The translations under genes and the position numbers were made by a program. Below, one piece after another: positions 1,937 through 19,260 of a stretch of 27,600 nucleotides of DNA. The notes under the pieces are model-generated. The model had not been told where the DNA came from, searched no databases, and saw only the letters and a list, made by a program, of their open reading frames with translations. This stretch comes from a virus. Numbering within the stretch: position 1 is the first letter of the stretch; the number at the start of each line of letters is the position of its first letter. Location of the stretch: positions 1-27,600 of IMG/VR virus record IMGVR_UViG_3300035211_000203; one strand, 5' to 3'.

Positions 1937-2537
1937 CGCTCCATCCCTGATCCTGGAAGTAGTCGTAAATTGCGTGACGTTTTGCTTTTGCCCTGGTCAT
2001 GTGCGCCCGCGTTCTGAAATATTTCTCCATGATTAGATCGAAACTTTCCGTTACCGCCTGTACAATCGTTTTTGCGTCATTGCTCATGCTCTGAAATGCA
2101 ATATCATCAATCAATTTATTTTCGCTTTCTTTCCATGCTATCGCCACTCTGCCGCAGAAAAAAGTATCTTCGTTTGCCTGTTTCTCGTTTCTGATGGAAT
2201 TTGTATTTTCAAATATTTCATTATACAATTCCATCTCCCCTTTTTGGAGTATCTTGCCATAGAAATATTCATTGTTTTTTCTTTTACCGATGCTTTTTCC
2301 TTTTCCCGCATGGCGATAAATTACGTCGTAAAAATCCCAGAACAGCTCTGATGAATAGAAAGTGTGAAAAGCAACTTTTTTAGACGGATCATACTTTTCG
2401 GCGCACTCCATAAATGTTTCATGGGCTGTTCCGATCAATTCGTCCCTGTCTATACTTATCTTTGTTGTTCTCCTGAATTTATTGATATTGATATCAATAG
2501 CTTTCTCTACTTCAGGGGTGTACAATTCTTCGTACAT
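1884..2537 (-). CDS. Sigma-70-like RNA polymerase factor (phage)
   Basis: A 217-residue protein. Residues about 30-80 (DRDELIGTAHETFMECAEKY, then DPSKKVAFHTFYSSELFW) match the sigma-70 region 2 pattern DDLxQEA...A...YDP.KG..F.TY, which binds core polymerase and melts the -10 region. The C-terminus (residues about 190-217, ending GWSEHRIMSAFREIKENLKR) could be the region 4 / helix-turn-helix counterpart but is less clear. Such divergent phage sigma factors redirect host polymerase to phage promoters. The start has SD AAAGGGAG and the cassette core upstream. The 3' end is the source of the duplicated 102-bp segment. Region 2 similarity is visible; promoter specificity is unknown. Confidence 0.7.
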   Translation of the reverse strand: MYEELYTPEVEKAIDININKFRRTTKISIDRDELIGTAHETFMECAEKYDPSKKVAFHTFYSSELFWDFYDVIYRHAGKGKSIGKRKNNEYFYGKILQKGEMELYNEIFENTNSIRNEKQANEDTFFCGRVAIAWKESENKLIDDIAFQSMSNDAKTIVQAVTESFDLIMEKYFRTRAHMTRAKAKRHAIYDYFQDQGWSEHRIMSAFREIKENLKR

Positions 2538-2617
2538 ATTTGGCTCTCCCTTTATAATTATAATTTTAAGACTAAAAGTCTTACTCTTTAGGTATATATA
2601 CCTAAAGAGTAAAATGT
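2538..2617 (-). promoter_or_regulatory. Type I cassette spacer upstream of sigma-like gene
   Basis: In minus-strand order it holds a 32-bp perfect palindrome (2581-2612), a short inverted repeat AAGACT/AGTCTT (2569-2583), the core AATTATAATTATAAAGGG, and the ATG. The long palindrome starts just after the stop of the upstream gene. Confidence 0.85.
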
Positions 2618-2893
2618 TTAATCAAAAGCATTTTCCGGAGTTTCCCAAATTTCTTTTTCTTCAATATTCGTAATCATTGAAAAAATCTCTTTTATTTCTG
2701 ATTTATTCAAAATAACTGGTATGCACTGGTCGCCATGATAATGGAAAATTCTGATTTCATTGATTAAATTTTCCATTTTAACTTTGCTTTTTTCCGGCTC
2801 TCCCTGCCATATAGGTTGACAATTTTTATACTTAGGATAAGTGTTATATTTTATAATACAATCTATTCCTAAAATATTTAATGCTTCTTTCAT
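2618..2893 (-). CDS. Hypothetical protein, 91 aa
   Basis: Not recognised. Acidic and soluble, with a Lys/Glu-rich centre and the segment IRIFHYHGDQCIPVILNKSE, probably a beta hairpin followed by a helix. No signal peptide or membrane segment. The start is set by the AAAGGGG SD in the cassette core, 8-9 bp before the ATG. Single-gene cassette flanked by type I spacers on both sides, which suggests an accessory gene expressed as its own unit. Confidence 0.75.
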   Translation of the reverse strand: MKEALNILGIDCIIKYNTYPKYKNCQPIWQGEPEKSKVKMENLINEIRIFHYHGDQCIPVILNKSEIKEIFSMITNIEEKEIWETPENAFD

Positions 2894-2976
2894 ATAAGTT
2901 ACCCCTTTATAATTATAATTTGTAAACGCTAAAGCGTTTACGCAAAGGGATAAGAATACCCCTAGGCGTAATTGTT
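2894..2976 (-). promoter_or_regulatory. Type I cassette spacer
   Basis: Core TATAATTATAAAGGGG next to the ATG; short inverted repeat GTAAACGC-TAAA-GCGTTTAC (2922-2941). The longer hairpin TTACGC...GCGTAA with inner GGG/CCC pairing spans 2938-2971. Stem sequences differ from all other spacers. Confidence 0.8.
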
Positions 2977-3483
2977 TTAATCCTCTTTTATGTCGATATA
3001 ATACTTATCGATCTCATCTTGTATTGAATCCGGCATATCTTCTTGATCTGCTCCACATATTTCGCATTTTAATTTACTTTTTGAATGAATATAGTTTCTT
3101 CCACATTCGCAATCCCAAAAATTCGGGTTAGTTATTATTTTATTATGGGCTTTGTTTCCTTTCATCACTGTTTCAATTGCTTTTTTGATTGAATCCCAAG
3201 AAACTCCATAATTGTTATCAATATTTTTAAATACAAGATCAAGAACTTCTCCGGCTTGAATATTGTTTATTTCAACATTCATTTCTTCCGCTTGTTCGTA
3301 TACATCTTTAAGAACCCATTGATGAGAGATTGAAATAGTATTATCGTCTTTATCTTTGACGGTAATTATTTCTACTTTATCAGATTCTTTTCTTATGAAA
3401 TCTTCTAAACTGTTTATGAAATCTTCATATATCACAGTTTTACCTTCATAGTTTCTTAGAAATTCCATTATTTCATCTATCAT
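2977..3483 (-). CDS. Hypothetical protein with C-terminal zinc ribbon
   Basis: A 168-residue protein. The first ~110 residues are acidic and mixed helix/strand with no recognised domain. Residues 122-145 (FWDCECGRNYIHSKSKLKCE then ICG) carry C125, C127, C140 and C143, a CxC...CxxC zinc-ribbon arrangement of the kind found on nucleic-acid or polymerase-associated small proteins. Start set by the SD in the cassette core. The gene lies alone between two type I spacers. Zinc binding is inferred from Cys spacing; the function is unknown. Confidence 0.75.
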   Translation of the reverse strand: MIDEIMEFLRNYEGKTVIYEDFINSLEDFIRKESDKVEIITVKDKDDNTISISHQWVLKDVYEQAEEMNVEINNIQAGEVLDLVFKNIDNNYGVSWDSIKKAIETVMKGNKAHNKIITNPNFWDCECGRNYIHSKSKLKCEICGADQEDMPDSIQDEIDKYYIDIKED

Positions 3484-3567
3484 AAAGTTACCCCTTTTAT
3501 AATTATAATTTTAAGTCTTAAAGACTTATGCCCTTCCGCCTGTTCAACGGCGGGAGAGCATAAAACT
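3484..3567 (-). promoter_or_regulatory. Type I cassette spacer
   Basis: Core AATTATAATTATAAAAGGGG; short repeat AAGTCT-TAA-AGACTT. The longer hairpin has outer ATGC/GCAT and inner CCGCC/GGCGG pairing, one of the GC-richest stems of the series. Confidence 0.8.
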
Positions 3568-3762
3568 TTAAAAGGTTTTTTCAACATCAATAACGGTTTC
3601 TCTGCCTGCTTTATCCCAGTATTTTAATTCATAAAAATCAGGGAATTCCGCTTTTACTTCACACTGCATATTCAGCCAGTAATTACGCATATCTTTGTCT
3701 TTAATGTGGGTGCGATCGACGATTTCAATATTATATTTCTTTTCTGCCTGTCTGATAGTCAT
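3568..3762 (-). CDS. Hypothetical protein, 64 aa
   Basis: Not recognised. Short, Lys/Asp-rich, with C-terminal strands around DFYELKYWDKAGRETVIDV. It starts 2 bp after the stop of the gene at 3765-3986 with SD AGGAATAACC. The two are therefore a bicistronic unit, the only such pair among the type I cassettes. No membrane segment or metal motif. Confidence 0.7.
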   Translation of the reverse strand: MTIRQAEKKYNIEIVDRTHIKDKDMRNYWLNMQCEVKAEFPDFYELKYWDKAGRETVIDVEKTF

Positions 3763-3764
3763 GG

Positions 3765-3986
3765 TTATTCCTCTGTCTCCGGTATGTATTTTCTATCCGG
3801 TTCAAGCATTACCGTCGCTGTTCCAACCCTGTTTCCGTTAAAGTCGTTAAATCTTTCAAATAACGATTTTATATCGTCATTTTCTTCGATCTTGTCGCAG
3901 TATTCCCTGAGAATCCTTGCAACTTCCTGACCCGGTATGTCGCAGAATGCGGCATTATCGATATTGATATTAATAACTAGTTCCAT
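3765..3986 (-). CDS. Hypothetical protein, 73 aa
   Basis: Not recognised. The start MELVININIDN at 3986 is chosen because the cassette core with SD AAAGGGG lies 8-9 bp upstream. A longer frame to 4061 would translate the spacer itself and is rejected. The N-terminus is a beta strand, the middle (QEVARILREYCDKIEENDDI) a helix, and the C-terminus another strand, a small alpha/beta fold. First gene of a two-gene unit with 3568-3762. Confidence 0.75.
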   Translation of the reverse strand: MELVININIDNAAFCDIPGQEVARILREYCDKIEENDDIKSLFERFNDFNGNRVGTATVMLEPDRKYIPETEE

Positions 3987-4073
3987 ATAAGTTACCCCTT
4001 TATAATTATTTAAAATAAAAGTGTATAAACACTTTAAAAGATGTCCTGTATAACAGGACATTAATTAAAGGAT
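3987..4073 (-). promoter_or_regulatory. Type I cassette spacer
   Basis: Core AATTATAAAGGGG (here followed upstream by TTTAAAT rather than the usual ATAATT). Short repeat AAGTGT-ATAA-ACACTT and longer hairpin ATGTCCTGT-ATA-ACAGGACAT. Confidence 0.8.
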
Positions 4074-4277
4074 TTAATTAGTGTACTCCTGGTCAGTTAT
4101 TATCCCCGCCCTGCAATCGTCTTGCCACGTAATACAAATAAATTTGTCGTTTTCATAGTCATTACAAGGCAAAGATGATCTATAGCGTTTCTCCCCGGAT
4201 GGCGACCATACCGAGAAAAAACATTCTTTAGAATCATCCTTATTTTTCAGAAATTCTTTTAATTGTTTTACTGTCAT
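4074..4277 (-). CDS. Hypothetical phage protein, 67 aa
   Basis: Begins MTVKQLKEFLKNKDDSKECF, the N-terminal pattern (TVKxLxxxLxxxxD) of small phage proteins of unknown function that often follow with a beta-strand core. No catalytic motif. Start set by SD AAAGGG, 7 bp before ATG. Flanked by a type I spacer upstream and another downstream. The family resemblance is weak and from memory. Confidence 0.7.
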   Translation of the reverse strand: MTVKQLKEFLKNKDDSKECFFSVWSPSGEKRYRSSLPCNDYENDKFICITWQDDCRAGIITDQEYTN

Positions 4278-4421
4278 AACATCACCCTTTTATAATTATA
4301 ATTTTAAGACTATTAAAAGTCTTATCACTAGGGACGTGTAATCCCTAATGATAAAGATTTTAAATAAAGGATTGTCATTCTGCTTGCGCATTACAGCGGG
4401 ACTATTGCCCGCTTGACTCTG
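4278..4421 (-). promoter_or_regulatory. Type I spacer following a type II 3' hairpin
   Basis: The only junction combining both spacer types. On the minus strand it reads stop, GC-rich 3' hairpin (4386-4426), then TATCA...TGATA with inner GGGA/TCCC pairing. These are followed by the short repeat AAGACT-AGTCTT and the core AATTATAATTATAAAAGGG. Confidence 0.8.
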
Positions 4422-4426
4422 CTATT
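4386..4426 (-). repeat. Type II 3' hairpin repeat, copy 1
   Basis: 41 bp identical to 4891-4931. The stem AGCGGG/CCCGCT with a 7-nt loop sits directly after the TAG stop of the gene at 4422-4838, and the stop itself is part of the repeat. Confidence 0.85.
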
Positions 4427-4838
4427 TGTTATTTACTGTACAAATCCACGGGAAATCAGAATAACGACAGTAATAAAAAATATAATTTTCTGTTTCTATT
4501 GTAGTATCAATTCCATCTATCCACGGAGTTTCCGGCATTTCTTTTAATATTTTTTTACTTTCTTCTTTATTCACTTCGTCCCATTCGGAATTTTCAATAT
4601 CTAAATCATTTAAAATTATGCTTTGCCAGTTCCTTCCATCCCAGTAATTCCATGCCATACAAGAAACGTGATCATTATTGTTTTCATTTTCTTCATCAAT
4701 TATACAACCTGCATCATAACATCCTATTTTTTGTCCATATTGGCTGTAGGTCTCACAGAAATTTGTTTTTTTAAAATTATCCTTTTTTGTAATGTAAAAT
4801 TGTTTTTCTGCTGCATAATTATTTTTTAATATTTTCAT
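4422..4838 (-). CDS. Hypothetical protein, 138 aa
   Basis: Not recognised. Rich in aromatic residues and Asn/Asp, with AWNYWDGRNWQSIILNDLD in the middle. The C-terminal half is YIFYYCRYSDFPWICTVNN, suggesting a beta-rich fold. Several Cys are spaced irregularly, so a metal site is doubtful. SD AAGGAG 8 bp before the ATG, without the type I core. Its stop codon lies inside the type II hairpin repeat, like the genes at 4907 and 5224. Confidence 0.75.
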   Translation of the reverse strand: MKILKNNYAAEKQFYITKKDNFKKTNFCETYSQYGQKIGCYDAGCIIDEENENNNDHVSCMAWNYWDGRNWQSIILNDLDIENSEWDEVNKEESKKILKEMPETPWIDGIDTTIETENYIFYYCRYSDFPWICTVNNK

Positions 4839-4906
4839 TTTGTTTCTCCTTATTTATTCTCAGGGCTTGTCACCTGTCCGCAACTGCGGAGCGCATTACA
4901 GCGGGA
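4839..4906 (-). promoter_or_regulatory. Type II spacer
   Basis: Minus-strand order: 3' hairpin of the upstream gene, hairpin TCCGCA-AC-TGCGGA (4877-4890), hairpin CAGG...CCTG with loop containing TGACAAG (4861-4876), then SD AAGGAG and ATG. The TGACAAG loop recurs at 5169-5186 on a different stem. Confidence 0.75.
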
Positions 4907-4931
4907 CTATTGCCCGCTTGACTCTGCTATT
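4891..4931 (-). repeat. Type II 3' hairpin repeat, copy 2
   Basis: Exact copy of 4386-4426. Here the neighbouring gene's frame reads into the repeat and stops at the TAG inside its loop. Confidence 0.85.
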
Positions 4932-5122
4932 ATAGTTTTTAAATTATTTTTTAATTCATCAAATTTAATACAATCATATTTATACAGTTCAATTTGATGT
5001 AAAATTTTCCCAGCTTTTTTAAGTTCTTTTTTTTGATATTTTGGTAATTTTTTTAATTCTTTTACCCAGTCGTTTGAAAGCAAATTAGCAAAAGCTTTAT
5101 CAGACATAATTGATTCTGTCAT
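4907..5122 (-). CDS. Hypothetical protein, 71 aa
   Basis: Not recognised. Strongly helical and Lys-rich (LSNDWVKELKKLPKYQKKEL), without metal or membrane motifs. SD AGAGGT before the ATG at 5122. The last six residues (AESSGQ) are encoded by the type II repeat itself. In the sister genes the TAG at the start of the repeat is the stop, so this gene appears to have lost frame with its native stop by a small indel near 4928-4932. The true function is unknown. Confidence 0.65.
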   Translation of the reverse strand: MTESIMSDKAFANLLSNDWVKELKKLPKYQKKELKKAGKILHQIELYKYDCIKFDELKNNLKTIIAESSGQ

Positions 5123-5223
5123 GATTTTTACCTCTTTTTGTCCGGTATTATTCCGGTATTAAGATTGATCGGACTTGTCACCGATCTTGTGCATTACAGC
5201 GGACAATAGTCCGCTTGACTCTG
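5123..5223 (-). promoter_or_regulatory. Type II spacer
   Basis: Contains the hairpin GATCGG...CCGATC with loop TGACAAG (5167-5186) and two CCGG-containing repeats (TACCGGA at about 5137-5160), then SD AGAGGT. The loop is shared with 4861-4876 while the stem is different and still paired. Confidence 0.7.
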
Positions 5224-5227
5224 CTAT
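5191..5227 (-). repeat. Type II 3' hairpin repeat, diverged copy 3
   Basis: Same module as 4386 and 4891 but the stem is AGCGGAC/GTCCGCT instead of AGCGGG/CCCGCT. Both arms changed together, which supports selection for pairing. It follows the TAG stop of the gene at 5224-5385. Confidence 0.8.
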
Positions 5228-5385
5228 ACATATTCGTGACAGTTCGGACAATAGTGTATGTCCTGTAATTCATCAACTGGACATTCTGCTAAATAACCTT
5301 CCCAGCCGCATGATTCACATTTTACTTGATTTTCATCATCCCATCCAAAATTATCAATACCGTATCCATCAAAATTATTTTCCAT
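5224..5385 (-). CDS. Small zinc-ribbon protein, 53 aa
   Basis: An acidic 53-residue protein starting MENNFDGYGIDNFGWDDENQ. Two Cys pairs, C23-x2-C26 (CESCGW) and C46-x2-C49 (CPNCHE), with a further C35, form a classic zinc-ribbon. The pattern CxxCGW...YCPNCG/H is widespread among very small phage proteins and transcription-associated ribbons. SD is GAGGG, with the repeated TTTTTTGTCCGGTATT-like leader upstream. The stop is the TAG at the start of the type II hairpin. Zinc binding is inferred; no partner can be named. Confidence 0.85.
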   Translation of the reverse strand: MENNFDGYGIDNFGWDDENQVKCESCGWEGYLAECPVDELQDIHYCPNCHEYV

Positions 5386-5435
5386 ATTCCCTCTTTTTTG
5401 TCCGGTATTTTACGCCCGCCGGACTCGGTTCGTTT
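5386..5435 (-). promoter_or_regulatory. Type II leader with GTCCGG hairpin
   Basis: Inverted repeat GTCCGG...CCGGAC just upstream of the SD of the 53-aa zinc-ribbon gene. The sequence TTTTTGTCCGGTATT is shared with the spacer at 5123-5223, where it also lies directly upstream of the SD. Confidence 0.6.
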
Positions 5436-5582
5436 TTATAATGGTTTAATACAACTAGTTTTAAAAAACCAATTCACTCCTGTCCAGTCAGCGTTTTTAC
5501 AGGTCAGCTTTACGATGTAAATTGTTTTCAATTCCTTTAAAATAACACCGTTTCCAATTCCCTTTACATATACTTTTTTCAT
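5436..5582 (-). CDS. Hypothetical protein, 48 aa
   Basis: Begins MKKVYVKGIGNGVILKELKT. Short, basic and beta-strand-like, with no recognised motif. The start is supported by the cassette core (TAATTATAAAGGG) and SD 8 bp upstream, exactly as in its neighbours, so I consider it real despite the size. The next gene, at 5224-5385, switches to the type II leader. Confidence 0.7.
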   Translation of the reverse strand: MKKVYVKGIGNGVILKELKTIYIVKLTCKNADWTGVNWFFKTSCIKPL

Positions 5583-5661
5583 AATATCACCCTTTATAAT
5601 TAGATTTAAGGTTAAAAACCTTAAAAATTCCCTGTTGTTAAACAGGGATAATTTAAGATAT
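5583..5661 (-). promoter_or_regulatory. Type I cassette spacer
   Basis: Core variant AAATCTAATTATAAAGGG; short repeat AAGGTT-AACCTT; longer hairpin TCCCTGTT-GTT-AAACAGGGA. Confidence 0.8.
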
Positions 5662-6519
5662 TTAATTATCGATTAACTGTGGTGCATGTTCTTTTATCAA
5701 TTCGTAATAGTAGTTTGCATATTTTTGCAACAGCGGAATTATGTCTTTTATTTGCATTCTTTTTTTATCTTCAATTCTCGCCCGATGACAAAACTGGTTT
5801 ATGCCTTCCATGCAGGCCCCGGTAAGTTGATGAAACTTTTTCCGGGTAATATAATCTGTCGATTTCCATTCTGAATAAGATTTCTCTTTCGGCCGTGCTT
5901 GCTTTTTGATTTTTCTGATTAATCCTTTTTCTGCATTTTCTGTTGTATCCGCATGAAAAGAAATATTTTTTATCCAGTCGACTGCAATAAAACCGGATTG
6001 CAGACTGACGTTATAACCCCTTTCCTGTGCTATCCATGCCGCGTTATAAAAAGAAATATTATTTTCTCTTTTCAGGAAATCACATTTTAGATTTACGATA
6101 TTATCAAATACACGCAGATTAACAGGGGGAAGATCAAAAAGAACTGGAATTTGTATGCAGGTATAATATCTTTTACCGGGGTGTCCGTATTGTTTTGAAT
6201 ACATATCCCAGTCAAGATTATAATCTGTCCATATAGCGGGGGTTCCTGTCCGCAGTTTTGCCCATTTTGACGGAGTATGCGCCGCATCCGCCGCCGTGCG
6301 ATAGTGTTTTTTTAACATAAAACATATAGTATTATAAACTTTTTTCTGATGTTCTTCTGCTTTCTCCCTGCATTCAAAATGCATTACAGGTTCATCCCAT
6401 TTTGACCAGCCTGCATTTTGTCGCTGTTCATATTTTGCCATTGCCTGCTTATACCATTCTTCCTTAGTCAACCCGCTGGATGCATACCAACTTTTACGAA
6501 TTTTGCTTTTTTGTATCAT
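5662..6519 (-). CDS. Hypothetical protein, 285 aa
   Basis: The largest cassette gene, not recognised. Rich in Trp, Tyr, Lys and His, with no P-loop, metal ligands or signal peptide that I can identify. The N-terminal ~60 residues look helical and charged (WYKQAMAKYEQRQNAGWSKW). The centre (TCIQIPVLFDLPPVNLRVFD and a later GYNVSLQSGFIAVDWI) suggests beta strands, and the C-terminus is helical (PLLQKYANYYYELIKEHAPQ). Start and SD come from the cassette core. The basic, aromatic composition would fit nucleic-acid contact, but this is only a suggestion. Confidence 0.8.
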   Translation of the reverse strand: MIQKSKIRKSWYASSGLTKEEWYKQAMAKYEQRQNAGWSKWDEPVMHFECREKAEEHQKKVYNTICFMLKKHYRTAADAAHTPSKWAKLRTGTPAIWTDYNLDWDMYSKQYGHPGKRYYTCIQIPVLFDLPPVNLRVFDNIVNLKCDFLKRENNISFYNAAWIAQERGYNVSLQSGFIAVDWIKNISFHADTTENAEKGLIRKIKKQARPKEKSYSEWKSTDYITRKKFHQLTGACMEGINQFCHRARIEDKKRMQIKDIIPLLQKYANYYYELIKEHAPQLIDN

Positions 6520-6634
6520 ATAATTAACCCTTTATAATTAGATTTAAATCCCTAATAGGATTTATAAAAAGGGATAAATTTTTTTATCCCTAGATATAAA
6601 TACTTTAAGATACTTTAAGATACTTTAAGATACT
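6520..6634 (-). promoter_or_regulatory. Type I cassette spacer
   Basis: Core variant AAATCTAATTATAAAGGG; short repeat AAATCC-GGATTT; longer AT-rich hairpin AGGGATAAA...TTTATCCCT, followed by a 10-bp tandem repeat that runs into the upstream gene's stop codon. Confidence 0.8.
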
Positions 6635-6643
6635 TTAAGATAC
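6600..6643. repeat. 10-bp tandem repeat (ATACTTTAAG), about 4.4 copies
   Basis: Perfect tandem copies. The stop codon of the gene at 6635-6937 is one of the TAA triplets inside the repeat (minus strand), so copy-number change alters only the 3' flank. Confidence 0.9.
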
Positions 6644-6937
6644 ATTATTTATCATATCTCTTTTTAACCCGTCGCTGACGTTCCATATTATCGGGTAATT
6701 ATTTTCTCGTTCGTACAGATAAGCATTTTTCTTATTATATCCCGGTAACAGATTATTATCCGTCATGATTTCAAGCGTTGTTTGTTTATAGTGTTCTTCA
6801 TAGCCATAAACCATCTTACCGGAAACATAATGTTTCCCTGTTTCTATTTCTTCGATATTGACAGAATGATAAGTATTCCCCGCTGATTTATCAAACCAGC
6901 GAACAGCATTAACAATAAATTTTATTTCTCTTTGCAT
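6635..6937 (-). CDS. Conserved phage protein of unknown function, 100 aa
   Basis: Begins with the segment VNAVRWFDKSAGNTYHSVNI and later has MVYGYEEHYKQTTLEIM. This combination (VRWFDKxNGNTYHSV ... YGYGxxYxQTA) is, from memory, a widespread family of small tailed-phage proteins with no assigned function. Length is typical. Start set by the cassette core SD. It ends inside the 10-bp tandem repeat. Presence in the early cassette cluster fits an accessory role. Confidence 0.85.
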   Translation of the reverse strand: MQREIKFIVNAVRWFDKSAGNTYHSVNIEEIETGKHYVSGKMVYGYEEHYKQTTLEIMTDNNLLPGYNKKNAYLYERENNYPIIWNVSDGLKRDMINNVS

Positions 6938-7025
6938 AATTTAACCCTTTTATAATTATAAATTTACGATCATTAATAATCGTATAAAGTACAGGGATTA
7001 ATTATCCCTGCATAGTATCTGATTA
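6938..7025 (-). promoter_or_regulatory. Type I cassette spacer
   Basis: Core AATTATAAAAGGG; short repeat ACGAT...ATCGT; longer hairpin CAGGGAT...ATCCCTG. The longer hairpin and its flanks (6983-7028) are nearly the same as at 8070-8115, differing mainly in the loop. Confidence 0.8.
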
Positions 7026-7265
7026 TTAAGCGGATAATATATCACATGTTAAGACAAGGCATTCAATTTTGTAAATTTTGAATTGCAAACCATCAGAAAA
7101 AAACATATTAAATTCTTTTATGAAATTAAAAGCTATTTCTTCAGAATCGAAAAATTGAGCATTTTTTATATCTGGAGTAAACTGGATATATTTTTTATCT
7201 TTAAATTGACAATACTCATTTTCCATGTTTTTAATAACATATTGTTTGAACGTTCGATATTTCAT
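7026..7265 (-). CDS. Hypothetical protein, 79 aa
   Basis: Not recognised. Contains YCQFKDKKYIQFTPDIKNAQ followed by FFDSEEIAFNFIKEF, a strand-strand-helix layout. It is rich in Phe, without a transmembrane segment or metal site. Start set by SD AAAGGG in the core. Flanked by type I spacers on both sides. Confidence 0.7.
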   Translation of the reverse strand: MKYRTFKQYVIKNMENEYCQFKDKKYIQFTPDIKNAQFFDSEEIAFNFIKEFNMFFSDGLQFKIYKIECLVLTCDILSA

Positions 7266-7345
7266 ATAATCACCCTTTTATAATTATAAATTTAAGTCTT
7301 AATGACTTATAATATATTCGGTTTAAACCGAATATATTATAAAGA
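7266..7345 (-). promoter_or_regulatory. Type I cassette spacer with 36-bp perfect palindrome
   Basis: The longest perfect palindrome of the series spans 7307-7342 and centres on GGTTTAAACC. It abuts the short repeat AAGTC-GACTT and the core AATTATAAAAGGG. Confidence 0.85.
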
Positions 7346-7549
7346 CTAAGCTTTTATTTCTTCATGTTCTTTTAACTTACTCGCTAGGGCGGTTATTGTA
7401 TGCGATAGACCAATTGCTGTTTTACGACCGTATGAAGTTTTATAAAATCCTTTGTATTTCTTTATGCCTAGAATTTTAGCTATTTCAATACCGCTGTTTT
7501 GTAAATATAGCTGTTCTTTCATAAATTCTTTCTCTTCACTTAATAACAT
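7346..7549 (-). CDS. Conserved small phage protein, 67 aa
   Basis: The segment GFYKTSYGRKTAIGLSHTIT resembles a short motif (YKTxxGxKTxxGLxRTI) that I recall from many small phage proteins of unknown function. The N-terminus is a charged helix. SD and start come from the cassette core. No enzyme motif is visible; a nucleic-acid-binding role would fit the basic centre but is a guess. Confidence 0.75.
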   Translation of the reverse strand: MLLSEEKEFMKEQLYLQNSGIEIAKILGIKKYKGFYKTSYGRKTAIGLSHTITALASKLKEHEEIKA

Positions 7550-7627
7550 AATATTTAACCCTTTTATAATTAGATTTAAGGTTTAATAACCTTATGTATC
7601 CCGGTCGTTAAACCGGGAAACATAAAA
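7550..7627 (-). promoter_or_regulatory. Type I cassette spacer
   Basis: Core variant AAATCTAATTATAAAAGGG; short repeat AAGGTT-TAAT-AACCTT. The longer hairpin TTATGT..CCCGGT-loop-ACCGGG..ACATAA (7592-7625) recurs at 8396-8432 with a different loop. Confidence 0.85.
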
Positions 7628-8026
7628 CTATTCAAACAGGATTTCTGAAAGATTTATCCCGTTAAATAACGATAATTTAACAGTATAGCCGCGCGGATCT
7701 CCCTGAAATTCAATATTAAAAATTCCCTGCCTGTCCGCAATGGAAGTATTTAAATCCTTAACTTCCTCAACAATCAAGTCGTGCAGTCTTTCAGACTCAA
7801 CATCAAACACTGTTCTTTCCTCATCGGCGTAAGCAGACTTGTCGTTAAAAGTAAAAAATCCTTTTCGGGGGATAAATCCTTCTCCATTGCAGTCATTTTC
7901 TGCCTGCCGCTGATAAGCTTTTGCCAGTCTGCGCAGTTTTTTAATTATTTGCACCTGTTCCCATGATAAAATAATTTTTGTGCGTTCGGCAAAGAAGCCG
8001 ACGATTAAATAATAAATTTTATCCAT
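7628..8026 (-). CDS. Conserved phage protein of unknown function, 132 aa
   Basis: A helical N-terminal half (SWEQVQIIKKLRRLAKAYQR) and a C-terminal FNIEFQGDPRGYTVKLSLF. The QGDPRGYxxKL ending, after a segment with a conserved DCN (here ENDCNGEG), is a combination I recall from many phage-encoded proteins of unknown function. Length is typical. Start from the cassette core SD. Flanked by type I spacers. Confidence 0.85.
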   Translation of the reverse strand: MDKIYYLIVGFFAERTKIILSWEQVQIIKKLRRLAKAYQRQAENDCNGEGFIPRKGFFTFNDKSAYADEERTVFDVESERLHDLIVEEVKDLNTSIADRQGIFNIEFQGDPRGYTVKLSLFNGINLSEILFE

Positions 8027-8112
8027 ATAATTTAACCCTTTTATAATTAAATTTAAGGTTTAATAACCTTATAAAGTACAGGGATAATTAATCCCTGTAT
8101 AGTATCTGGTTA
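8027..8112 (-). promoter_or_regulatory. Type I cassette spacer
   Basis: Core AATTATAAAAGGG; short repeat AAGGTT-TAAT-AACCTT, identical to that at 7550-7627. The longer hairpin ACAGGGAT...ATCCCTGT is shared with 6938-7025. Short and long stems are thus combined independently. Confidence 0.85.
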
Positions 8113-8349
8113 TTAAAGTTTTTTTTGATAATTGATTGCCGGAAAACAAGCGGGTATTGATTTTACAAATTGCATTGCATCAGCTATGGGAATATAAAGT
8201 TTTGTCAATTCTCCTGCCGTACCGATAATATAAGAATCGGCAATTCCGGCGGGCTTATAAATTAATCTGTTCCTGTATTTATCAGGTAATTTTAAAAATT
8301 CACCTTTTTCCAGCCATAAGCGACCGTCATATTTTCTGAAATTTGCCAT
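8113..8349 (-). CDS. Hypothetical protein, 78 aa
   Basis: Not recognised. N-terminal MANFRKYDGRLWLEKGEFLK, then a hydrophobic beta-rich part (AGIADSYIIGTAGELTKLYI) and a short helix. No membrane prediction by eye. Start and SD from the cassette core. Confidence 0.75.
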   Translation of the reverse strand: MANFRKYDGRLWLEKGEFLKLPDKYRNRLIYKPAGIADSYIIGTAGELTKLYIPIADAMQFVKSIPACFPAINYQKKL

Positions 8350-8437
8350 AATAATTTAACCCTTTTATAATTATAAATTTAAGTTATTAAATAACTTATG
8401 TAACCCGGTACTAAATAGACCGGGAAACATAAATAAT
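8350..8437 (-). promoter_or_regulatory. Type I cassette spacer
   Basis: Core AATTATAAAAGGG; short repeat AAGTTAT-TAA-ATAACTT. The longer hairpin TTATGT..CCCGGT-loop-ACCGGG..ACATAA (8396-8432) is shared with 7592-7625. Confidence 0.85.
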
Positions 8438-9079
8438 TTAAACAGGGCAGGTTTCTCTTTTATCAAGCGGCACATGATTTATTATATACGCTTTTAACTT
8501 TTTCAGGTGTTCGGAAATTTGTTTTTTCATACTCCATTCAATTTCCGCTTCCCCTTCTTTGATCATGTATTTTATACTGTCATACCCGAAAAATCCCCAA
8601 CATGAGCCGCACTCATTACCGTTTTTATCTCTTGCCATATAGCCGTAAACTTCCCCGGTAAGATACTGGTCATATTCCTTTACTTCACACTCAAGAATAT
8701 TTATCACTTTTTCCCGCAGTTTTTTACTAATACGTTTTACTTTCCATTCTTTTCTTATTTCTTCGGCAGTGACATAAATAATTCCTACCTGCCCCGCATC
8801 CCACCTGTCATTGTACGGATATGAATTGCTAGTTGACATTGTAATTCCCGAATGATCGTACAGATTGAGATTTAAATAAATTACATCTTTTCTCTTGATC
8901 AATTCCAGTACATCGTCAACACTGAAATTATGATCATCGCCTAAATTATAGCGGCGGTGAAAACATATCATATGCCCTAAATTATCCTGTTCTGTCCGGG
9001 GATTGAACGGGCTGTCATCGAGATAGATATTGACCGTACCGTTTTTTACTTCCCTTGACTCAACTAAATAATTACTCAT
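8438..9079 (-). CDS. Conserved phage protein of unknown function, 213 aa
   Basis: Contains the family signature DNLGHMICFHRRYNLGDDHN followed by LNLNLYDHSGITMSTS and WDAGQVGIIYVTAEEIRKEW. Later come KLREKVINILECEVKEYDQY and LTGEVYGYMARDKNG. From memory these segments define a widely distributed tailed-phage protein family (about 170-220 aa) without known function. Length and order of motifs are complete, so the gene looks intact. Start from the cassette core SD AAAGGG. Its presence supports a lytic-phage accessory region. Confidence 0.9.
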   Translation of the reverse strand: MSNYLVESREVKNGTVNIYLDDSPFNPRTEQDNLGHMICFHRRYNLGDDHNFSVDDVLELIKRKDVIYLNLNLYDHSGITMSTSNSYPYNDRWDAGQVGIIYVTAEEIRKEWKVKRISKKLREKVINILECEVKEYDQYLTGEVYGYMARDKNGNECGSCWGFFGYDSIKYMIKEGEAEIEWSMKKQISEHLKKLKAYIINHVPLDKRETCPV

Positions 9080-9162
9080 AATATTTACCCTTTTATAATT
9101 ATAATTTTAAGTTCATAAAAGAACTTATCCCGCTTAACATTAATTAAGCAGGATAAATCATT
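9080..9162 (-). promoter_or_regulatory. Type I cassette spacer
   Basis: Core AATTATAATTATAAAAGGG; short repeat AAGTTC-GAACTT. The longer hairpin has TTATCC..GCTTAA / TTAAGC..GGATAA pairing. Confidence 0.85.
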
Positions 9163-9306
9163 TTAAGCTACACGCTTGATTCTTACCGCTTCCCGGCGAG
9201 TATAAATCCTTCCGTTTTTTGCCTGTTCATAATAGGTTTTTACTATAATGCGGTTACCTTTCAGATCATAAGCGGTTTTATTGATTGTTGTTTTTATTAT
9301 TTTCAT
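9163..9306 (-). CDS. Small basic protein, 47 aa
   Basis: Begins MKIIKTTINKTAYDLKGNRI and ends with REAVRIKRVA. Strongly basic and beta-strand-like, with no recognised motif. I accept it because a cassette core (AATTATAAAAGGA) with SD lies at the standard distance before the ATG at 9306 and a type I spacer follows its stop. It is the most upstream gene of the leftward cluster, next to the divergent intergenic region. Confidence 0.7.
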   Translation of the reverse strand: MKIIKTTINKTAYDLKGNRIIVKTYYEQAKNGRIYTRREAVRIKRVA

Positions 9307-10033
9307 ATTTACATCCTTTTATAATTATAAATTTAATATCATACTGAATAAGACAATTTAATATTGTCTTAAACAGTAACATATTAATAACTGCAAAATA
9401 TTATTTAATGTTGTTATCAAAGTCAATATTGACCGATCAACATAATATTTTGGCTTAATGTTAAATTAAAGTTTTCAGGAATCAAACATCCTGAAAATCA
9501 AAGTTTCTAAACTTCAAACGTGTTTAGAAATTAAAGGGTAAATTATAAAAGGTTTTTTGAGATTAAGACACTTTATCAGGATTTTCGGCTTTTGTGAAGT
9601 TTCCGGCTTCAAGACTTTTTCCCGACCGCATCCGTAAAGATCGGTTACAATGTTTTGTGTCCGTGGAATTTCAAAGATTGCTGTACAATCCCGTCTTTCA
9701 GGGAAGGAATAAATTTAAAATTTTATAAAGTCAATCAGTGAATGTTATATAAAATGTTAAATCTATTATTTAAAAAAAATGATTTAAAACTAACTTACAT
9801 ATATAATATGCTTTATATATCGTCAAAAGTCAAGAAAAAAACGAAAAAAAAGAAAGAAAAGTTTTCATATGTAAACAAAAAGAGCGAATTTTTGAACTTT
9901 TTTTAATTAAAATAGAAAAAATTAATAGAATAAATAAAAAAAATAAGACAAAGAAATATGAATTATCCGATAAGGAAAATAAAGAGAGAGATTGAATTAA
10001 AATTAAGAATAATAAACGGAGTAATAAAAGAAT
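9307..10033. other. Divergent AT-rich intergenic region
   Basis: No convincing gene lies between the leftward cluster and the first rightward gene. The left part holds the core for the 47-aa gene and several inverted repeats: AAGACAA...TTGTCTT (9350-9370), and a large stem CAAAATATTAT...ATAATATTTTG with an inner GTCAATATTGAC. About 9560-9720 is less AT-rich with several small stems (GAAG/CTTC, CCGA/TCGG, GATTG/CAATC). 9730-9957 is extremely AT-rich with purine runs, as seen at origins or strong promoters. A 59-codon frame at 9958-10137 overlaps the next gene and is doubtful. Confidence 0.7.
9472..9558 (+). promoter_or_regulatory. Mirror-oriented copy of the type I module
   Basis: On the plus strand the same order appears: hairpin TTTTCAGGA...TCCTGAAAA (9472-9497), hairpin TTTCTAAAC...GTTTAGAAA (9504-9530), then TTAAAGGGTAAATTATAAAAGG. 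No ATG follows at the usual distance. A TTG at 9556 would start a 26-codon frame, too short to call. Confidence 0.5.
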
Positions 10034-10177
10034 ATGAGAGTAATACTTACTGTAATAATATGTTTGATTGCAATGCCATTTGTAATAATCGGAATAATAT
10101 GCACGGGAATCATCAAACTATTCTATTTAATTATTGATAAAGTATACCCGGACAATAACGATATATTCAGATTATAA
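10034..10177 (+). CDS. Small membrane protein, 47 aa
   Basis: Starts MRVILTVIICLIAMPFVIIG and continues with another hydrophobic stretch before VYPDNNDIFRL. One long or two short transmembrane segments fill residues 3-33. Candidate SDs are GGAG 12 bp upstream and AAAAG 4 bp upstream, neither ideal. The last seven codons lie inside a 22-bp tandem repeat. It could be an inner-membrane effector or holin-like protein, but size alone does not justify a holin call. First plus-strand gene after the divergent region. Confidence 0.5.
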   Translation: MRVILTVIICLIAMPFVIIGIICTGIIKLFYLIIDKVYPDNNDIFRL

Positions 10178-10217
10178 TAACGATATATTCAGATTATAAT
10201 AACGATATATTCAGATA
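10157..10217. repeat. 22-bp tandem repeat, about 2.7 copies
   Basis: Unit AACGATATATTCAGATTATA plus AT repeats perfectly at 10157-10178 and 10179-10200, with a partial third copy. It overlaps the 3' end of the 47-aa membrane gene. Confidence 0.9.
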
Positions 10218-10233
10218 ATACGATATAATAAAC

Positions 10234-10395
10234 ATGGAAGAAATAACATATATAATCTATTGCGAGAAAATAAAGAAAGCTATTCCGGATATACAGTATT
10301 GTAATAATACATGTAAAGAATATCAGTACAGTACAATACGGGAATGCCAAGATATCAATATAACGATACAGGATAATGTAGAGAATAAGAAATAA
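10234..10395 (+). CDS. Hypothetical Cys-containing protein, 53 aa
   Basis: Starts MEEITYIIYCEKIKKAIPDI. Cysteines at 10, 23, 27 and 38 (NNTC at 24-27) do not form a regular zinc site. There is no clear SD, so translation is uncertain. The frame is open and bounded by the tandem repeat upstream and a 32-bp palindrome 4 bp downstream of its stop. Confidence 0.4.
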   Translation: MEEITYIIYCEKIKKAIPDIQYCNNTCKEYQYSTIRECQDINITIQDNVENKK

Positions 10396-10398
10396 TAC

Positions 10399-10430
10399 TT
10401 ATTAACAATTATATATATAATTGTTAATAA
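10399..10430. repeat. 32-bp perfect palindrome
   Basis: A perfect inverted repeat without spacer (TTATTAACAATTATAT and its complement), immediately 3' of a short gene and 3 bp from a DnaA-box match. It could be a cruciform-forming origin element or a binding site. As a terminator it would lack a U-tract. Confidence 0.9.
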
Positions 10431-10433
10431 CTT

Positions 10434-10442
10434 TGTGGATAA
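10434..10442 (-). promoter_or_regulatory. Perfect DnaA-box match (TTATCCACA)
   Basis: The consensus DnaA box TTATNCACA occurs on the minus strand as TTATCCACA. It neighbours a 32-bp palindrome and long AT-only stretches. A single box is weak evidence for an origin. Confidence 0.4.
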
Positions 10443-10844
10443 GTATATAATATATTATCTATATATTATAATATTCAAATAATACGATATATATGATTGT
10501 TTGAAGAAAACAGGATAAAAGATAAATAAGAAAAATACAGGAATATAAGGGCAGAAGAAAGAAAAAAAAGTATGAAGGGTATACTCATTATCTAAATTCA
10601 ATAATCTTATCAATACCGGGATACTCCCCGATTTAATACAAATACGATACAATAAGACATAATAACTATTATAAGCAGTACATTTCATAGTTATTTACAC
10701 AAAAAGCGAAAACCATGTTATACGGCTATGAACCCTTAGTGCAACCCTCTGTTATTCTACCCAGAATTTTTTCCAGGGTCTATTTTGTATAGGCTTACTC
10801 TTCTATCCTGTATATTATTTTCCAGAAAATTTTTTTCAGGGTTC
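10443..10844. other. Non-coding AT-rich gap
   Basis: About 400 bp without a supportable gene. It is AT-rich to about 10690. At 10770-10845 two imperfect copies of CCAGAA(T/A)n-CCAGGGT/CAGGGTTCT occur about 60 bp apart, each with ACCC/GGGT-type pairing, just upstream of the 29-bp repeat at 10845. A 77-codon hydrophobic frame on the minus strand at 10455-10688 has no SD and looks like chance. Confidence 0.6.
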
Positions 10845-10873
10845 TTTTTCTTATTATCCGATATATAAAGTAT
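10845..10873 (+). promoter_or_regulatory. 29-bp repeated upstream element, copy 1
   Basis: Exactly identical to 11486-11514. It contains TTATCCGATA followed by TATAAAGTAT and lies immediately upstream of a small gene, so it is a candidate plus-strand promoter or operator. Confidence 0.6.
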
Positions 10874-11485: not shown

Positions 11486-11514
11486 TTTTTCTTATTATCC
11501 GATATATAAAGTAT
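11486..11514 (+). promoter_or_regulatory. 29-bp repeated upstream element, copy 2
   Basis: Second exact copy of the element at 10845-10873, starting 3 bp after a stop codon and 29 bp before the next start codon. The position is consistent with a promoter for the genes from 11543 on. Confidence 0.6.
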
Positions 11515-13082: not shown

Positions 13083-13691
13083 ATGAAATCAGTAACAATT
13101 GAACAAATAATGTCTTTTGGTCCATGTTCAATTTATACAAGAGAACACATTGAGGAATTGCGAAAAGAAGTTTGCGGAAGAAGAAAGCGAATTACCATAC
13201 AAGACATAATGAATGCGCCTATCCCCGCACAGGATAAAATATGGCTGTTATTACGAGAGGAATTTTTTACGGAATTGCAGCTACACCAGATATCTATCTG
13301 GTGTTGGGAAAAAATTGCAAGGCCTGTATGGGAGAAATATTATCCGGAAGACAAAAGGCCGCATGAGGCAATACGGATAAAAAAATTGTGGCTTAAAGGA
13401 AAAGCTACAGATGAGCAATTGAATGTCGCAAGGAAGGATGCATGGGCTGTAGAGAATGCGGCATGGGCTGCAGAGAATGCTGTATGGGTTGTCGCAAGGG
13501 AAGCTGCAAGGGTTGCTGCATGGGATACTGCATGGGATACTGCATGGGAAGCTGCAAGGGTTGCTGCAAAGGAAGCTGCAAAGGAAGCTGCATGGGTTGA
13601 TGGAAGGGTTGCTGCAAAGGAAGCTGCATGGGTTGCTACATGGAAAAAAATACTAAAACATATAAATAAACTGGGAGTAGAAAGCAAATGA
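13083..13691 (+). CDS. Protein with Ala/Trp-rich helical repeat tract, 202 aa
   Basis: SD GGAGG. Residues 1-118 form an ordinary N-terminal domain ending in AIRIKKLWLKGKATDEQLNV. Residues about 119-190 are a degenerate 4-5-residue repeat of the AxWxA type (AWDTAWDTAWEAARVAA, KEAAKEAAW). They form an amphipathic alanine-rich helix with Trp every 4-8 residues, ending in a short Lys-rich tail. Proteins of this composition after a WL.G.AT.EEL lead-in occur in phages and bacteria, sometimes annotated as putative Imm5-like immunity domains; I cannot confirm that here. Overlaps the next gene as ATGA. Confidence 0.75.
   Translation: MKSVTIEQIMSFGPCSIYTREHIEELRKEVCGRRKRITIQDIMNAPIPAQDKIWLLLREEFFTELQLHQISIWCWEKIARPVWEKYYPEDKRPHEAIRIKKLWLKGKATDEQLNVARKDAWAVENAAWAAENAVWVVAREAARVAAWDTAWDTAWEAARVAAKEAAKEAAWVDGRVAAKEAAWVATWKKILKHINKLGVESK
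13438..13650 (+). repeat. Imperfect 12/15-bp coding repeats (GCTGCATGGGA-type)
   Basis: Units built from GCTGCATGG, GCTGCAAAGGAA and GCATGGGATACT are tandemly arranged, giving open frames on five other readings. Several units are identical, so recent slippage expansion is likely. Confidence 0.85.
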
Positions 13692-14236: not shown

Positions 14237-14428
14237 TATTTAGACTCCATTTACCCATCAGGGGATGGAAAAATTTTTAAATAATAAAAGGAGCTATTAA
14301 TGAAAATGTAGATTTCTTTATTTATATATAATATGTTTCATATGATTATATATAAATAAAGATTTGTTTTTTAATCATTATAAGCAGCTTCCGCCGGGTT
14401 TTGGGTCGCATTATTTTCTGGCGGATAA
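14237..14428. other. Non-coding spacer with weak hairpin and a 3-codon frame
   Basis: CCAT..CCC/GGG..ATGG pairing at about 14250-14271, followed by AAAAATTTTT, may terminate the upstream small-gene operon. A strong SD (AAAGGAG) then precedes a three-codon frame ATGAAAATGTAG at 14300-14311, possibly a gene remnant cut by the hairpin at 14315. Confidence 0.4.
14315..14362. repeat. Long AT-rich hairpin (18-bp perfect stem)
   Basis: Arms 14315-14332 and 14345-14362 are perfect complements with a 12-nt loop (ATGTTTCATATG). It lies 66 bp upstream of the tRNA; possibly an RNA-processing signal or the edge of an inserted tRNA segment. Confidence 0.9.
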
Positions 14429-15968: not shown

Positions 15969-16499
15969 TTGGCAGATAAAAATAATACCCCTGCAATATC
16001 CGGACCATTGGGAGGATTGCCGGGATCCGGCCGCACTCCGAAGGCTTTGATGTTTAAAAATTATCCGCAGGCTATTAAGATGCTGGATGAAGGTCTTCTG
16101 GACGCCATTCAGGTATTGAAAGACGGCCTGAAGGCTACTACGAATGTTTATTCCAAAGACGGAACGCTGGTGGAGGAGAATGTGCCTGATAAGTGGTTTC
16201 GTTACAATTGCGCGATACAGCTTTTAAAGAAAGCTATTCCGGATAAAAAAATTAAAGAAATAACCGGGCCTGAAGGAGGGCCGGTTGAAGTTAATATAAA
16301 TAAAAGAGAAGCAGTATTATCCATTTTGCAAATAATAGAGGATAAACCATTAGAAGAATTAAGGCGGGAAATAGAGGATGGAAGTTTCCAGTTATCTCAG
16401 TCTGACAGAAGAAGAGAAATCGAAGCGGAAGAAGAAATGGAAGGAGAGGCAAAAGAAGAAAGGACAAGGATTAGATCCGGAAGAAGAAATAGCGAATGA
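15969..16499 (+). CDS. terS: Terminase small subunit (probable)
   Basis: A TTG start is used: MADKNNTPAISGPLGGLPGS follows SD-like GAGAGAG. Residues about 15-110 have a Pro/Gly-rich entry, then helices (NYPQAIKMLDEGLLDAIQVL) and a strand-rich joint (DKKIKEITGPEGGPVEVNIN). The C-terminal 50 residues are Glu/Arg-rich, helical and likely contact the large subunit. Small terminase subunits recognise packaging sites and regulate TerL. The call rests on position directly upstream of TerL and on helix layout; the sequence itself is divergent. Its last 122 bp overlap TerL in another frame. Confidence 0.7.
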   Translation: MADKNNTPAISGPLGGLPGSGRTPKALMFKNYPQAIKMLDEGLLDAIQVLKDGLKATTNVYSKDGTLVEENVPDKWFRYNCAIQLLKKAIPDKKIKEITGPEGGPVEVNINKREAVLSILQIIEDKPLEELRREIEDGSFQLSQSDRRREIEAEEEMEGEAKEERTRIRSGRRNSE

Positions 16500-19095: not shown

Positions 19096-19103
19096 TAAAA
19101 ATG

Positions 19104-19131
19104 TTGACAAAATGATATATATGTGTATACA
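19104..19131 (+). promoter_or_regulatory. Sigma-70-like promoter upstream of portal
   Basis: TTGACA (19104-19109), a 16-bp spacer, then TATACA (19126-19131). Placed right after terL and about 130 bp before the portal start. Confidence 0.5.
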
Positions 19132-19132
19132 T

Positions 19133-19260
19133 TAGAATTATGTTTTGGCTCTCTAAAACTACTACTCTCTTTGTTGTTTATTTGTTTCGTAAGCAACCGC
19201 GATAAGGTGCTCTCGCTTGCTCGGCGATAAGAGCAAATTTCATCAATAAGATGAGTCGAG
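19133..19260 (+). other. Structured 5' leader of the portal operon
   Basis: Contains GCTCT...AGAGC pairing with inner CGC/GCG (about 19211-19233) and the repeated GCGATAAG either side. The SD before ATG 19261 is weak (GAGTCGAG), unlike the strong sites elsewhere, so the leader fold may matter for portal translation. Confidence 0.4.

Follow-up and report, generated by a model that had tools for sequence, protein, structure and literature searches.

We analysed positions 1–27,600 of the IMG/VR virus record IMGVR_UViG_3300035211_000203 (the window; all coordinates use its numbering), 27.6 kb from an uncultured tailed phage with a portal protein, a GP7-like capsid and an intein-bearing large gene. 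Its left arm is a leftward (minus-strand) array of about 18 small genes, mostly orphans, that runs from 9306 to 1884; genes are referred to here by their start positions. The spacers of this array carry copies of a module of two tandem hairpins followed by an almost invariant core. We show computationally that the pairing of the module persists through sequence change, that it can fold in two ways, that neighbouring gaps match ribozymes and that a promoter signature is absent. No DNA similarity to known phages was found for 2500–9400 or 9300–9850.

A two-hairpin module in the spacers

Each module runs in the order upstream stop codon and flank, stem 1, stem 2, core, ribosome-binding site (RBS) and ATG, over about 80–90 nt from stop to start (Table 1). 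The first-pass annotation of this DNA had proposed at least 14 spacers of one build with a near-invariant core. The core, AATTATAAA(A)GG on the minus strand, is indeed almost invariant before all 14 named genes, and its matches with at most two mismatches number 26, against 9.4 ± 3.0 expected (0 of 100 shuffles as high). The common build of stem 1, stem 2 and core before the ATG holds in 13 of these spacers; that of gene 9306 is a partial copy, in which a single long hairpin precedes the core and the order of stem 1 and stem 2 is absent. Genes 5385, 5122, 4838 and 3762 of the array are without a module, the last being separated from its upstream gene by a 2-nt gap.

The structure of the module is far beyond chance. 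First, stem 2 stands directly before the core in all 13 full copies, and all 65 of its five outermost pairs are formed, compared with 48.6 ± 2.5 for arms exchanged among copies; its perfect Watson–Crick length is 6–9 bp (combined p = 1.3 × 10−11 against dinucleotide shuffles). Second, 109 of 130 pairs are formed in stem 1, compared with 66.3 ± 5.5 after swapping. Third, the minimum free energy (MFE) z-scores of the spacers against dinucleotide shuffles range from −2.9 to −8.4, with a mean of −5.45. Fourth, a covariance model of stem 2 and core, built from the 13 copies, recovers exactly those 13 sites and, without having been trained on it, the spacer of 9306 as the weakest real match; the same model finds nothing convincing on the plus strand or in the right arm.

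The sequences of the arms vary while their pairing is kept. Stem 2 has 8 distinct pairs among the 13 copies, and cells in which both sides have changed, counted with hand-set arms, number 13 in stem 2 and 46 in stem 1. These counts support the earlier proposal that the structure is under selection, as judged from copies within one genome: covariation was compared among the copies of this phage rather than between orthologues, because no module-bearing relative was found.

A third strand, two folds and neighbouring predicted ribozymes

The module contains three mutually complementary strands: F, the stop codon with about 7 nt; A, the 5′ arm of stem 2 with its loop; and C, the 3′ arm of stem 2. 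Stem 1 lies between F and A, and F, upstream stop included, pairs with A as a continuation of stem 1, with TAAA opposite TTTA in seven copies and TAAT opposite ATTA in two (8026 and 6937). With the register fixed by a rule at the junction of the two stems, F fits the A strand of its own copy at 116 of 143 positions, against 98.1 ± 4.1 for swapped strands (0 of 20,000 permutations), and the folding gain of F:A with its own rather than a foreign arm has a z-score of −3.5 (p = 6 × 10−4). A repeat search independently reports inverted repeats of 24–27 nt that extend from the stop codon into loop 2, and the near-twin modules 8026 and 6937 show matched changes in F, A and C.

The stop codon lies 7–11 nt before stem 1 in 11 of the 13 copies; modules 4277 and 6519 retain a TAAA at the usual place though their real stop is further upstream. 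At 6600–6647, directly after the stop of gene 6635–6937, a 10-bp unit, TAAAGTATCT, is repeated 4.8 times and copies the flank strand of module 6519.

A pairs with F as well as with C, and the spacer therefore folds either as one hairpin of about 51 nt and 21 bp or as two tandem hairpins. The one-hairpin state has a median span of 51 nt and 21 bp (shorter in 2893 and 2537), and in all 13 copies its energy differs from that of the tandem state by −5.4 to +2.7 kcal/mol (0.2–5.4 in size, mostly below 5). About 9 of the 13 one-hairpin folds contain an internal loop, of 1 × 1 to 3 × 3.

Two of the module-free gaps, before genes 5122 and 4838, carry predicted Twister-P5 self-cleaving ribozymes instead, with matches to Rfam RF02684 above the gathering score of 37.6 bits. 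A third copy, below that score, adjoins module 4277; the first-pass annotation is corrected here in that a decayed ribozyme lies upstream of this module. Copies 1 and 3 begin at the upstream stop codon, and copy 2 overlaps the end of its upstream gene. The ribozymes presumably cut the same transcript as the one that holds the modules. Two of these features, the alternative pairing anchored at the stop codon and the Twister-P5 ribozymes, were absent from the first-pass annotation and are added here.

Candidate functions of the spacers

Action at the RNA level is favoured because the three strands covary, stop codon included, and because ribozymes lie next door; rather than promoters, the spacers probably contain signals for RNA processing or gene insulation. 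The first-pass annotation had left two readings standing: promoter-operator units with TATAAT in the core, and RNA-processing units. One promoter per gene, with or without an operator, has in its favour that most cores contain TTATAATTATAAA, spaced plausibly for a promoter that gives a very short leader, and that comparable sites, the ESAS of cluster K mycobacteriophages, contain SigA-like promoters, as later work reported (PMC11373665). Nonetheless, at least 4 of the 13 cores have lost TATAAT while the part of the core near the Shine–Dalgarno (SD) sequence persists, there is no −35 element, and a lax sigma-70 scan gives 51 matches against 46.4 ± 6.8 expected, at chance level, with nothing systematic at the modules. 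There is also no common operator sequence, because the arms vary, and a separate candidate motif heads the operon; the promoter reading is the least probable of those weighed here. That motif, the 15-mer CGATATATAAAGYAT, is a candidate phage promoter motif; one copy heads the left operon (9808–9822, minus strand) and two precede rightward genes (10859–10873 and 11500–11514, plus strand). The leader RNA at 9535–9705 has no excess of folding stability.

Canonical termination had been set aside earlier for want of a U-tract, which is mostly right, except that a lax scan for intrinsic terminators accepts 5 of the 13 stems (10 in the region as a whole, against 4.7 ± 2.3 expected). Since mutually exclusive hairpins are typical of attenuators, the spacers might be transcription attenuators or terminators that tune read-through along the array. 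This is quite improbable: 8 of the 13 copies fail even the lax scan, and the U-runs, where present, comprise 4–5 U and are paired in the one-hairpin state. A GC-rich hairpin with a U-tract, as in an intrinsic terminator, is not a general feature of the modules.

Palindromes and a shared core could also serve at the DNA level, as exchange cassettes for recombination or gene shuffling (attC-like, or by boundary homology), with RNA folding as a by-product. Consistent with this are the mosaic copies, such as 7549, which joins a stem 1 of the 8349 type to a stem 2 of the 8026 type, the extent of the units from stop to start, and the mostly orphan genes that they separate; the GTT...AAC ends of integron attC R boxes occur in a few copies only, with arms read by eye. 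Such cassettes would leave unexplained the mutual fit of F, A and C, the inclusion of the stop codon and the replacement by ribozymes, and no recombinase was recognised among the scanned proteins, bar one weak match to a Cox-like excisionase (E = 0.003). We therefore regard them as improbable.

The RNA-processing half of the earlier proposal fits better: the spacers can fold over about 51 nt and 21 bp, most copies have an internal loop, and adjoining spacers carry ribozymes. The reading that we favour, with somewhat less than even confidence, is that the spacers are intercistronic processing elements of the RNase III (T7 R1.1-like) kind that are cut and then refold. They would be RNA elements within a polycistronic leftward transcript, each extending from a stop codon to the next start codon. 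In the uncut RNA, F:A pairing would lengthen stem 1 into the one-hairpin fold of about 51 nt and 21 bp. Stem 1 would then be cut by an endoribonuclease specific for double strands, most likely the RNase III of the host (we infer both the cut and the enzyme), and this would part F from A, which could refold with C. The downstream mRNA would then begin with a short 5′ hairpin, which may protect the message, followed by an unstructured A/U-rich ribosome site, and in neighbouring spacers the Twister-P5 ribozymes would perform the equivalent cutting. Cut-and-refold is favoured because the one-hairpin fold is R1.1-like, because the internal loop occurs in about 9 copies, and because of what happens in a modelled 3′ product that lacks the flank and the 5′ portion of stem 1: predicted stem 2 formation goes from 0.37 to 0.80 (p = 0.0017, a rise partly built into the model) and SD openness from 0.49 to 0.61 (p = 0.017).

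Besides the built-in part of that rise, several results weigh against cut-and-refold processing. The F:A folding test weakens to p = 0.027 when the twin pair 8026/6937 is left out, and a register-free F:A duplex test is much weaker (p = 0.035). Module 2893 hardly forms the one-hairpin state, and the internal loop is absent in 9079, 7265, 4277 and 2537. As a test of strand, G·U pairs show no excess over A·C beyond composition, and the transcript strand is therefore not proven by that test. Finally, no module-bearing relative was found in the scanned collections (IMG/VR, GTDB and protein-seeded loci); the covariance model suggested earlier for this phage and its relatives recovered the 13 sites and 9306 within the phage. 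Exact core scans of IMG/VR and GTDB genomes gave isolated matches only, without convincing twin hairpins. Among the protein queries, the 285-aa and 217-aa proteins had no matches; the 213-aa protein and the portal protein led to relatives, in whose available DNA the module is absent; and the helicase gave two distant matches (29–30% identity), not scanned for modules. Close relatives do exist, as two short contigs with portal identities of 97% and 80% show. Apparent module matches at the loci of a Twister-seeded scan were rejected as GC-rich or coding false positives.

The main rival, which we hold to be unlikely, is a translational-coupling relay without cutting. When the upstream gene is untranslated, F:A would pair and the free 3′ arm could pair toward the SD sequence; a ribosome terminating at the stop codon would cover F, allowing stem 2 to form and the SD sequence to open. 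Each gene would thus be translated only if the previous one was. The stop codon is suitably placed for this, within the F:A helix and at its near-constant 7–11-nt distance from stem 1, and a coupling model in which upstream translation unfolds the RNA is already known (PMC12548453). Masking F opens the SD sequence in 8349 (0.31 to 0.74), 7549 (0.25 to 0.55 at +6), 5582 (0.52 to 0.82) and 3986 (0.24 to 0.53). Over the 13 copies, however, mean SD openness rises just from 0.49 to 0.57, clearly in 4 of 13 and with 2537 moving in the opposite direction, which leaves SD sequestration unsupported as a general rule. Spacers of about 80–90 nt are also long for coupling, and 4277 and 6519 no longer have their stop at that place.

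We consider it possible, if doubtful, that the module acts as a three-strand RNA switch that senses translation termination, with the stop codon in a bistable hairpin, repeated 13 times per operon and replaceable by a ribozyme, which would give each small gene its own message with a 5′ hairpin. Arrays of accessory genes in phages are commonly taken for simple operons. In this one, nearly all junctions hold either an RNA element selected for its structure or a ribozyme, an arrangement that suggests cutting or insulation of the transcript at each gene. The array thus supplies, in 13 natural replicates, a single RNA design with which to study how phages set the expression of adjacent small genes, and points to a possible role for self-cleaving ribozymes within phage genomes.

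Feature positions and known systems

Table 1. Positions of spacer modules and associated elements in the window
Feature	Position	Strand	Evidence or remark
Module of gene 9079 (stop and flank, stem 1, stem 2, core, RBS)	9080–9165	−	Covariance model, 59.4 bits
Module of gene 8349	8350–8440	−	Core, stems, covariance model
Module of gene 8026, near-twin of 6937	8027–8115	−	27-nt inverted repeat; stems, covariance model
Module of gene 7549, mosaic (stem 1 of 8349 type, stem 2 of 8026 type)	7550–7630	−	
Module of gene 7265; perfect 18-nt inverted repeat as stem 1	7266–7348	−	
Module of gene 6937	6938–7028	−	Stems, inverted repeat, covariance model
Module of gene 6519, preceded by 10-bp tandem repeat of its own flank	6520–6637	−	
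Module of gene 5582	5583–5664	−	Stems, covariance model
Module of gene 4277; TAAA in usual position, real stop upstream of decayed ribozyme	4278–4362	−	
Module of gene 3986	3987–4076	−	Stems, inverted repeat, covariance model
Module of gene 3483	3484–3570	−	Stems, covariance model
Module of gene 2893; weakest flank pairing	2894–2979	−	
Module of gene 2537	2538–2620	−	Stems, inverted repeat, covariance model
Partial copy, gene 9306 (one long hairpin and core)	9307–9387	−	26.9 bits
Predicted Twister-P5 ribozyme, spacer of gene 5122, from upstream stop codon	5169–5225	−	Rfam RF02684, 52.1 bits
Predicted Twister-P5 ribozyme, spacer of gene 4838	4861–4928	−	Rfam RF02684, 39.8 bits
Third Twister-P5 copy, probably decayed, upstream of module 4277	4366–4423	−	26.2 bits
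Plain hairpin before A-rich RBS, spacer of gene 5385 (neither module nor ribozyme)	5400–5424	−	
Candidate promoter motif CGATATATAAAGCAT, head of left operon	9808–9822	−	

Elsewhere in the window, the minus-strand sequence of 1650–1930 holds two copies of a segment of about 90 nt (GGATCATGTCTGCTTTCCGGGAGATCAAGG...GATAATAT), with foreign-looking DNA between them, the mark of either a recent duplication or an assembly join. A 22-bp unit is repeated three times at 10154–10220, inside the AT-rich, gene-poor stretch 9850–10870, possibly an origin or control region. The gene at 13083–13691 consists of 12/36/48-bp coding repeats and matches a PHROG of unknown function, and an 18-nt inverted repeat without mismatches, its loop 12 nt long (14315–14362), lies just before a tRNA-Asp gene. 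Directly before the portal gene, the gene at 16378–19095, probably the large terminase, contains an intein bearing a LAGLIDADG endonuclease domain; the leader of the portal gene (19100–19260) is promoter-like and hairpin-rich, with similar elements (TTGACA, CGATAAG repeats) in the relatives L034, L035 and L038.

Among known RNA families, Twister-P5 (RF02684) is represented in two spacers of this array that neighbour the modules, placed at the stop codon or directly after it; the twin-hairpin module itself, by contrast, fits no Rfam family at the gathering threshold, and lower-scoring matches at the modules are at chance level. Coupling by RNA unfolding, as at phage f1 VII/IX and MS2 coat/lysis (PMC12548453), resembles the module in that upstream termination could alter structure near the next RBS, and differs in that the module spacers are much longer, do not generally sequester the SD sequence and are repeated.

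The nearest published pattern is that of the SAS/ESAS sequences of cluster K mycobacteriophages, in which about 11–19 copies of a short conserved RBS-proximal sequence lie at non-structural genes, about half with an inverted repeat just upstream (PMC3203893). The module shares the repeated RBS-proximal sequence with an inverted repeat upstream, but its arms vary while their pairing is kept, and no systematic match to sigma-70-like −35 and −10 elements was found at the modules. Because ESAS repeats are conserved in sequence, are unsupported as paired RNA (PMC3203893) and contain SigA-like promoters, the module is not a member of this group and, on present evidence, works differently.

Finally, among the RNase III sites of T7 early mRNA, R1.1 is a 60-nt substrate with an internal loop that lies between genes 1.0 and 1.1 (PMC6121014). 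Like sites of this type, the module forms an intercistronic hairpin of about 50–60 nt between a stop codon and the next RBS, is repeated along a phage transcript and has an internal loop in most copies, and its median of 21 bp and 51 nt matches the hairpin of some 20 bp or more expected between genes. Unlike them, it occurs in 13 copies, takes the upstream stop codon into its helix, would be cleaved only according to our proposal, and has a third strand that lets one arm refold into a second hairpin.

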